In this document: in pieces, positions 20,600 through 22,615 of the stretch
Layout: every line of letters begins with the position of its first letter
How positions within the stretch are numbered: the first letter of the stretch is position 1
Origin: a virus
Strand: one strand, 5' to 3'
IMG/VR virus record: IMGVR_UViG_3300037586_004130
Span: 1-27,156 of that record
Length of the DNA stretch: 27,156 bases
Program-made: the position numbers and the translations under genes
The notes under the pieces: model-generated
What the model saw: the letters and a program-made list of their open reading frames with translations, nothing else
Told to the model about the DNA's origin: nothing
The model's database searches: none

Positions 20600-20932
20600 T
20601 TAATTTTTGAATGGCCACCGGAGACCAGTTTCAGTTTCAAATTTTTTTACAGAAGACCCAAGTTTGTGACGAGAATTAAGGGTCCGGAAATCATTAAGGC
20701 CATGCTTTAGATAAGAGTCCATGTAGGCCTTCTCGCGCGCGAGAGCTTGGGTAAAAGCATTAACCTGGCCGCTCGTGCCTGTTATACTAATGGGGACGTC
20801 GATGCCCGCTTCATATAAAGATAGAAGCAACCCTTCGAGTTGCCCTGCAAATTTATTATAAATACGGACTCTCTCGAAGAGGGGGCGATTTAATTGATTT
20901 AAATTAATAATATCTGTGGTGAGTTCATCCAC
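20600..20932 (-). CDS. Unassigned 110-aa protein upstream of the tape measure
   Basis: The start is a GTG at 20930-20932 (product MDELTTDIINLNQLNRPLFERV), with GAAGGGG somewhat far upstream. The protein is mixed charged and helical, with a Gly/Ser/Thr patch (SITGTSGQVNAF, about 49-60). It lacks membrane or catalytic motifs. Its place between the start-less chaperone extension and the tape measure suggests a tail assembly or baseplate helper, by position only. A candidate promoter with a perfect inverted repeat lies upstream at 20952-20967. Confidence 0.65.
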   Translation of the reverse strand: MDELTTDIINLNQLNRPLFERVRIYNKFAGQLEGLLLSLYEAGIDVPISITGTSGQVNAFTQALAREKAYMDSYLKHGLNDFRTLNSRHKLGSSVKKFETETGLRWPFKN

Positions 20933-20981: not shown

Positions 20982-21170
20982 CTATTTTATCTTGCCCTGA
21001 GCTTTCTTAACCTCATCCGCCTCTCTCTTAAACTCTTTGATGAGACGTTCAAGAAACCATCTGCGAAGAGCGATGGGCAAATTATATATTTCGGTAAATG
21101 ACCAACCACCGTAATGTTTGAGGTTAAAAAACTCTTCATAAATTCCCTCTTGATATTCAGCGTTTAGGCC
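20982..21170 (-). CDS. Start-less tail chaperone extension, probably reached by frameshift
   Basis: This frame is +1 relative to the 21157-22017 gene and ends at the TAG at 20982-20984. It encodes 62 residues after the shift point: GLNAEYQEGIYEEFFNLKHY and then GGWSFTEIYNLPIALRRWFL, ending in a charged helix. The middle part (YGGWS-x4-YNLP-x3-RRWFLERL) has the look of small phage tail-chaperone proteins encoded just before the tape measure. The frame has no ATG, GTG or TTG before its conserved part: it is bounded upstream by a TGA inside the preceding gene. It would be made as a C-terminal extension of that gene, about 344 aa in total, in the style of lambda G/GT. An overlapping ATG frame at about 21140 has a fair SD, but its product does not look like a protein. 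Confidence 0.7.
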   Translation of the reverse strand, partial: GLNAEYQEGIYEEFFNLKHYGGWSFTEIYNLPIALRRWFLERLIKEFKREADEVKKAQGKIK

Positions 21171-22017
21171 AAAAAAATTCTGCCGTCATCGGCATCACCA
21201 CCTTTCCGACGAAGCTACAGGCTGGACATTCAAAATCAAATTTGATGTCCATGTCGGGTTTAACCTTTTCATATTTTCTTCTTAAATATGACACATCTTG
21301 AAGGGGTATCATTTCGACAAACTTATCGATTGTTTGCCTATCGGTATGATCGTTAGCAGCAACTACAATGGCCTTCAATAGATCGGTGATAACTGAGGAT
21401 TCCTTTTTGAATTTCTTTTTGGCGCTAGTGGCTTGTACCAGCCTTTCTTCATCCGCAGCGGTGAGCAACTTAACCGTCAGCCTAACTTTGGATATTGGAA
21501 GCTCTAAGGCAAAAAGTCCGTTTTCTACCACTTCAACTTCCGACGGCATCTCCGTGACATCGGCCTCAACAATCTCGTTTAGGTTAAAAAGATTATCTGC
21601 TTTCTCATAACACGAAGGGCACGTGGTATTTACTGCATAGTCGGGACCAAAGCCAGTAATACGCGCTGCTATTAAAATAGCATTTTTATCGCCTAAAAGT
21701 AATTTCCTTACCTGTATATTTTTATCTACAATAAGTGAGTCGACCATACGATTGATCGCAACCCCCTTTTTTAATAGGGTTTCGGAGGTAAGAATATCTT
21801 CCTCCTTGGCCGTCATATGTTTAATTTCAATTGTATCTATATTATGGAGAGGATGGTCTTCTGGATAAAACTGTCCTCTACTAGGTAACTCTACAAACTC
21901 GGTTGGATTAACAAAGGAAAATAGATCCTCTGTATCGTTAGTTAGGTTTGTTGGAGTTGACGAGTCAAAGTCGGGTCGGGGAGGCTTTAATCGCCCCGCA
22001 TTATTTCTTCTTCCCAC
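21157..22017 (-). CDS. gp26/T4_baseplate-family protein, likely tail assembly chaperone
   Basis: The 286-aa protein contains FVELPSRGQFYPEDHPL (41-57) and IEIKHMTAKEEDILTSETLLKKG (64-86). These match the T4 bacteriophage base-plate protein family (gp26; PF12322 as I recall). It carries two CxxC pairs, CPSC at 133-136 and CPAC at 264-267, probably a zinc site linking the two halves. GTG start with AAGGTG upstream. It sits between the tail tube and the tape measure, the place of tail assembly chaperones in long-tailed phages. Its last codons (GAA TTT TTT TGG) cross a run of seven T's at which a shift would add 62 residues. T4 knowledge assigns gp26 to the baseplate hub, so hub and chaperone remain alternatives. 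The family call is fairly good, the role less so. Confidence 0.75.
   Translation of the reverse strand: MGRRNNAGRLKPPRPDFDSSTPTNLTNDTEDLFSFVNPTEFVELPSRGQFYPEDHPLHNIDTIEIKHMTAKEEDILTSETLLKKGVAINRMVDSLIVDKNIQVRKLLLGDKNAILIAARITGFGPDYAVNTTCPSCYEKADNLFNLNEIVEADVTEMPSEVEVVENGLFALELPISKVRLTVKLLTAADEERLVQATSAKKKFKKESSVITDLLKAIVVAANDHTDRQTIDKFVEMIPLQDVSYLRRKYEKVKPDMDIKFDFECPACSFVGKVVMPMTAEFFWPKR
21171..21177 (-). other. T7 slippery run, candidate ribosomal frameshift site
   Basis: Minus-strand GAA TTT TTT TGG: seven consecutive T's in phase with two Phe codons, ending four codons before the TGA. Slipping +1 or -2 on UUU continues into GGC CTA AAC and the start-less frame ending at 20982. tRNA-Phe can re-pair perfectly after either shift. 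Confidence 0.5.
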
Positions 22018-22039: not shown

Positions 22040-22615
22040 CTAGCTCCCAGCTGCAGCAGCGACCGCGGGTCCGGGAGTATAGTCTGCCCAATCATACCTT
22101 ATCGAGAGCTCAATATTAAGGATTTCATCCCCACTATAATCTAAATTACCAAAACTAGCCTTCGTCAAGAAGGAGTTATTCAGCAACCAAGTGCCGATTA
22201 AGCCGCCTTGGCCACTCAATTCCTCAATAACGACATTGCCGATAGCATCAATGGAGTTAAACTTATTAACCGTACCCGGAGCCTGAGATGGATTCGTAAA
22301 AACGTCTTCCTGATCGGGTGGCATCAGATAGCCAGAGCGCGTAAGAGCATCTACAAGCAGCTTATTGCCGTCTGGGTTTACAGAGTTAATAATTGTTATA
22401 TCAACGGGCTGCCACTCGACGGTGCCAGGATAATAGTACGTATTGCCGAGGAACTTATGCGATATTTCGGTAATGTTATAAGCCGGCTTTCCTGCCATCT
22501 TTGCCAAATATTGTTCATATTGGTATCCTTCAGCCGTACTTGCTAAATTGGGAAGAGTCAGCAAAAAACGATGCTGTCTCCTAGGTTCTGATAAAGCGCT
22601 GGTCCAAAATGGCAT
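22040..22615 (-). CDS. Tail tube protein, T4 gp19-like
   Basis: The 191-aa protein starts MPFWTSALSEPRRQHRFLL, a form seen in many myophage tube proteins. It continues with KPAYNITEISHKFLGNTYYY and PGTVEWQPVDITI (about 43-76), the 'P.y...e...k.l....yypG...w..v.itf' strand pair characteristic of the gp19 family. The C-terminal half has the matching beta strands (GDEILNIELSIRYDWADY). T4 gp19 has 163 residues, so this one is slightly longer. Many copies stack as hexamers into the inner tube through which DNA passes. It directly follows the sheath gene, as in T4 (18 then 19). GGAGAT is the SD. Confidence 0.88.
   Translation of the reverse strand: MPFWTSALSEPRRQHRFLLTLPNLASTAEGYQYEQYLAKMAGKPAYNITEISHKFLGNTYYYPGTVEWQPVDITIINSVNPDGNKLLVDALTRSGYLMPPDQEDVFTNPSQAPGTVNKFNSIDAIGNVVIEELSGQGGLIGTWLLNNSFLTKASFGNLDYSGDEILNIELSIRYDWADYTPGPAVAAAAGS

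Follow-up and report, generated by a model that had tools for sequence, protein, structure and literature searches.

The gp26-family gene of the window, by which we mean the whole 27,156-base IMG/VR virus record analysed here, runs at its 3′ end into a protein-like open frame in another phase, and the locus raises the question of how that frame comes to be translated. The gene lies on the minus strand, begins with GTG behind an SD-like AGAAGG, and ends in the codons ...GCA GAA TTT TTT TGG CCT AAA CGC TGA. Its product matched PF12322 (T4_baseplate; E 1.3e-17, 64.7 bits against a gathering cut-off of 24.5) and phrog_150 (E 1e-16). The +1-phase frame is open for 67 codons, overlaps the end of the gene, and supplies 62 codons after the slip, reading GGC CTA AAC GCT ... 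AAA TAA. The phase of this frame, the run of seven T's and the last codons of the gene had been described in a first-pass annotation, and each was confirmed in the sequence; translation through a +1 slip gave 344 residues, the length anticipated for the fusion. The same annotation had described the extension as lacking a start codon. This holds for the conserved domain but not to the letter: a TTG at codon 31 is the sole ATG, GTG or TTG in the extension and, because it falls within a conserved YNLP motif, it cannot start the conserved domain. An Rfam search of the window returned no match.

On the minus strand the genes run in the order head-tail adaptor, 321-aa protein, sheath, tube, gp26 with its extension, 110-aa protein and 742-aa probable tape measure protein, the next two encoding a protein of 377 aa and a baseplate wedge protein (Table 1). 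The 742-aa protein had no family match in PHROGs or Pfam and was called from its position and a C-terminal VGEQGPEMVEMP motif, which we take to be typical of tape measure proteins. With that call, gp26 and its extension probably sit between the tail tube and tape measure genes, in agreement with the placement first proposed.

Several other features of this region were observed. The 955-aa sheath protein is unusually long, its Pfam sheath domains making up the C-terminal third. Between the extension and the tape measure gene, the 110-aa ORF (20600-20932, minus strand) has a GTG start and an SD-like AAGAAGG; similar sequence was found in 111 loci, and there was no Pfam or PHROG match. The tail tube protein is 97% identical to that of a related locus (L004:2403-2975), whereas gp26 is about 66% identical to its L004 counterpart, a difference that suggests recombination near the tube/chaperone border.

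Table 1. Features of the tail region of the window
Feature	Coordinates	Strand	Evidence
Probable tape measure protein, 742 aa	18357..20585	-	position and C-terminal VGEQGPEMVEMP motif
+1-phase open frame, 62-codon long-form extension after slip	20982..21185	-	conserved phase, omega 0.093, three predicted helices
344-residue fusion, predicted long form after +1 slip	20982..22017	-	translation
gp26-family tail assembly chaperone, short form, TAC-N, 286 aa	21157..22017	-	PF12322, phrog_150, predicted fold
Slippery run GAA TTT TTT T GG, seven T's	21171..21177	-	third slip-codon base and next base T in 159/159 clusters
Tail tube gene, upstream neighbour of gp26	22040..22615	-	phrog_4542 E 7e-17
Tail sheath gene, 955 aa	22685..25552	-	phrog_23 E 5e-69; PF17482

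Relatives of gp26 were gathered from IMG/VR, phage records and bacterial genome contigs by protein searches; a DNA-level search of phage records with the window locus gave no match. The 271 loci with a complete gp26 end were picked by similarity and are partly redundant, and their count is not a prevalence. The extension lay in the same +1 phase in 259 of them. The remaining 12 comprised eight jumbo phages with a -1 shift at T_TTT_TTY, two other -1-phase loci and two loci with a separate ATG-led gene. Isolates with the +1 phase were Microcystis phage Mel-JY01, Flavobacterium phage immuto, Bacillus SP-15, Listeria LIS04 and Streptococcus GXN1. Seven contigs from bacterial genome assemblies were also in +1 phase, five of them titled Flavobacteriales, Flavobacteriaceae or Winogradskyella. 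Part of the clade is likely to have a Bacteroidota host: immuto infects a Flavobacterium, and relatives (L288-L294) were located on contigs that had been binned with genomes of Flavobacteriales and others.

Among 80 closer pairs of extensions, omega was 0.093 in the +1 frame, compared with 1.77 and 2.13 in the other two frames; divergent pairs had given a saturated value of 0.56, and the calculation was hence redone on the closer ones. By this measure the extension is under purifying selection as a protein in the +1 frame. Homopolymers are prone to sequencing and assembly errors, and a miscounted run could hide either a single uninterrupted ORF or two ordinary genes. However, a shared phase in so many loci, from many samples and from cultured phages, together with the selection on the extension, leaves such an error a negligible probability, and the independent contigs and sequenced isolates exclude for the family the concern about run length that accompanied the original proposal.

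The extension could instead be a separate protein made by reinitiation from an unusual start. It is an ATG-led gene in L101, L106 and Pseudomonas phage Cygsa01, and short CDSs are annotated at its position in GenBank records. In L101 and L106, which are nested within the +1 clade, this gene encodes about 20 extra N-terminal residues; the arrangement is an apparent loss of the frameshift and indicates that fusion is not strictly required. Relatives in which the small ORF has an ATG and SD of its own had been named earlier as a sign against frameshifting; among the 271 loci, a separate ATG-led gene was found in these two. In the window, a start would be limited to the codon-31 TTG. Across a set of 159 clusters below 85% identity, 77 had no start at all in the first 25 extension codons, and only 2 had a start with an SD-like 4-mer there. 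Furthermore, conservation begins exactly at the slip site, with FFGL, which separate initiation does not explain. Reinitiation is therefore extremely improbable as the source of the window extension.

At the slip site, the slip codon was TTT in 154 of the 159 clusters and CTT in 5, and the next base was always T (YTT_T); the all-TTT slip codon departs from codon usage with log10 P -19.9, phylogeny ignored. The T-run and the out-of-frame overlap are thus kept among relatives, as the first-pass annotation had suggested checking, although the run is broken in 13 clusters. These variants bear on the direction of the slip, which had been given as either +1 or -2. If ribosomes instead slipped back two bases on the T7 run, as they do in phage Mu, they would reach the same final phase with an FFF-G junction, and T7 permits such re-pairing in 143/159 clusters. 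The codon before the slip codon is TTC, however, in 8 clusters (TTC TTT TGG), and the site reads TTT CTT TGG in 5; both block re-pairing two bases back and permit UUU_U or CUU_U, which favors +1 over -2. The sites of SP-15 and GXN1 are TTT_C and also compatible with +1, the GXN1 sequence TTC TTT CGT fitting UUU_C. As the 13 variant clusters re-pair only in +1, the +1 alternative stood, while a -2 slip is quite improbable.

Slippage of RNA polymerase on the T-run would yield some mRNAs with six U's that encode an in-frame fusion, and seven T's are present in most relatives. Phase is kept, however, where the run is cut to TTCTTTT or TTTCTTT. In addition, T7 is short for efficient polymerase slippage in E. 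coli, which also counts against this explanation, and we regard it as very improbable. In L293, a metagenome-assembled contig titled Winogradskyella, the site is TTT TTT TTC, indicating that a ribosomal +1 slip does not need the UGG codon. Some observations count against a +1 slip. The LIS04 site, TTT TTT AGT, would allow imperfect +1 re-pairing unless the first UUU slips. Downstream RNA as a stimulatory structure folded no better than shuffled sequences (mean z about 0), and SD-like 4-mers that could act as an upstream stimulator were rare (9/159 clusters).

The short form and the extension were modelled separately, giving a short-form model with a pLDDT of 89 and an extension of three helices with a pLDDT of 92. 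The top PDB matches of the short-form N-terminal domain were the HK97 tail assembly chaperone 2ob9, at a modest Z of 5.8 over 89 residues, and YqbN (3klu; Z 5.5 over 79 residues), which we take to be a chaperone; the next, unrelated match had a Z of 3.1, and values below 8 are not proof. Foldseek against the PDB alone found nothing significant, and a fold search with the extension alone returned uninformative three-helix matches with Z below 4. Position and predicted fold suggest that the gene encodes a tail assembly chaperone of a contractile-tailed phage and yields it as a short/long pair. When profiles were compared, the +1 extensions matched the -1 extensions (probability 95, E 4e-8) and the -1 extensions matched the end of T4 gp51 (probability 68), whereas the direct comparison of the +1 extension with the gp51 end was insignificant (probability 0.4); the link to gp51 thus runs through the -1 group. 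These profile matches point to homology between the +1 and -1 extensions and, more weakly and indirectly, with the end of T4 gp51.

The occurrence of both directions in one family was reflected in the base before the two Phe codons, at -7 from TGG. In the +1 clusters this base was C or G in 146/159, A in 9/159 and T in 4/159, whereas about 70 T's (sd 5) were expected from the codon usage of the same genes. The window has A at this position and its extension in +1 phase, and so does not carry the -1 site T_TTT_TTY. By comparison, T preceded the two Phe codons in 11/11 -1 loci examined, where it completes that canonical heptamer. T at -7 was associated with frameshift direction by Fisher's test (p = 2e-14), but the loci share ancestry and only a few switches are needed on the tree, which makes this a correlation rather than proof of cause. 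Two changes of direction label suffice on the gp26 tree, with both separate-gene loci nested inside. Avoidance of A at -7 is not explained by the -1 heptamer. We give slightly less than even weight to the reading that this one family has changed frameshift direction, -1 or +1, while using the same Phe pair, and that the change is written in very few bases: T before the pair goes with -1, whereas T avoided before the pair and required after it goes with +1. If true, this would define a minimal +1 site with no need of a stop codon, SD or RNA structure. In one locus (L279, Synechococcus phage S-SCSM1, 3687-3874), the gp26 end has the -1 site T_TTT_TTC and a gp51-like extension in +1 phase, a mismatch that would be explicable by an indel in the record or a separate start.

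Frameshifting is general among tail chaperones: shifts of -1, -2 and +1 have all been reported, in different phages, and T4 has been named as the exception (PMC5009743). Lambda G/GT and P2 E/E' occupy the same position between tube and tape measure and produce a short and a rarer long form by frameshift near the 3′ end (PMC5009743). Their slip is -1, whereas the window family would slip +1 at YUU_U, and its chaperone is of the gp26 (PF12322) family. In Mu, the -2 frameshift of the tail chaperone reaches a final phase equal to +1, but the variant sites in the window family bar -2 re-pairing. Forward slipping also occurs in prfB (CUU_U), and immuto and some others use CTT_T as prfB does; the window family has neither an A-site stop codon nor an SD stimulator. 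A +1 shift in a tail gene of HSTV-2, a haloarchaeal myovirus infecting archaea, is known to us through citations (PMC5009743, PMC8211752).

Within the gp26 family, T4 makes the short and long forms from two genes on opposite strands, 26 and 51, with no frameshift, whereas the window has one gene; T4 gp26 consists of PF12322 alone, and gp51 of PF12322 (residues 1-201) and a C-terminal tail resembling the extension. The more distantly related cyanophage and jumbo phages S-RIM8, RaK2, 121Q and CM1 have a homologous short form and extension and likewise slip at this point on a pair of Phe codons, but through T_TTT_TTY in -1 phase rather than the mostly NNS TTT TTT_T sites in +1 phase of the window group. 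The remark in the first-pass annotation that this is not usually credited to known T4 relatives is outdated. According to papers that cite it (PMC10885494, PMC12846349), the study of Vladimirov et al. 2022 (doi 10.1016/j.virol.2021.11.003) assigned T4-like chaperones, some as a short gene and a longer fused gene, with poly-T -1 sites in T4-like short-form genes. Compared with T4 gp51, the cyanophage protein is missing the first ~200 residues (Sullivan et al., PMC3037559); the annotated gp51 of S-RIM8 lies within the -1 extension of gp26, which would account for the short cyanophage protein.

Collectively, conservation, purifying selection, synteny, the predicted fold and the indirect homology to T4 gp51 back the initial proposal of a programmed frameshift making a tail-chaperone extension. 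A +1 ribosomal frameshift very probably makes the long form; we infer the slip, its rate and the roles of both products from sequence. Most ribosomes would reach the gp26 stop and release the 286-aa short form. In a minority, while UGG awaits decoding in the A site, the peptidyl-tRNA-Phe paired with the second UUU in the P site would slip one base forward, again onto UUU, and GGC would be decoded next. The 62-residue, three-helix domain thereby added would give the 344-aa long form. If the pair works as lambda G/GT does, the short form would coat the tape measure protein and the extension would bring tail tube subunits to that protein.

No description of a +1 slip in the gp26 family was found in the literature, in which the study of Vladimirov et al. 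2022 was represented by the papers citing it. What appears to be new in this family is the +1 direction throughout a large clade, largely of uncultured phages, and the possible one-base signature of direction also looks new. According to the authors of PRFect, forward frameshifts have no known general motif (PMC10885494). The family constitutes a large natural data set in which a +1 site (YUU_U with a constrained -7 base) stands beside homologous -1 sites, and the determinants of direction are thus testable by single-base changes in reporters. These findings suggest that the long chaperone form goes unannotated in many phages, both environmental and cultured, and for the gp26 family they place a +1 route beside the -1 and two-gene routes that had been proposed before.
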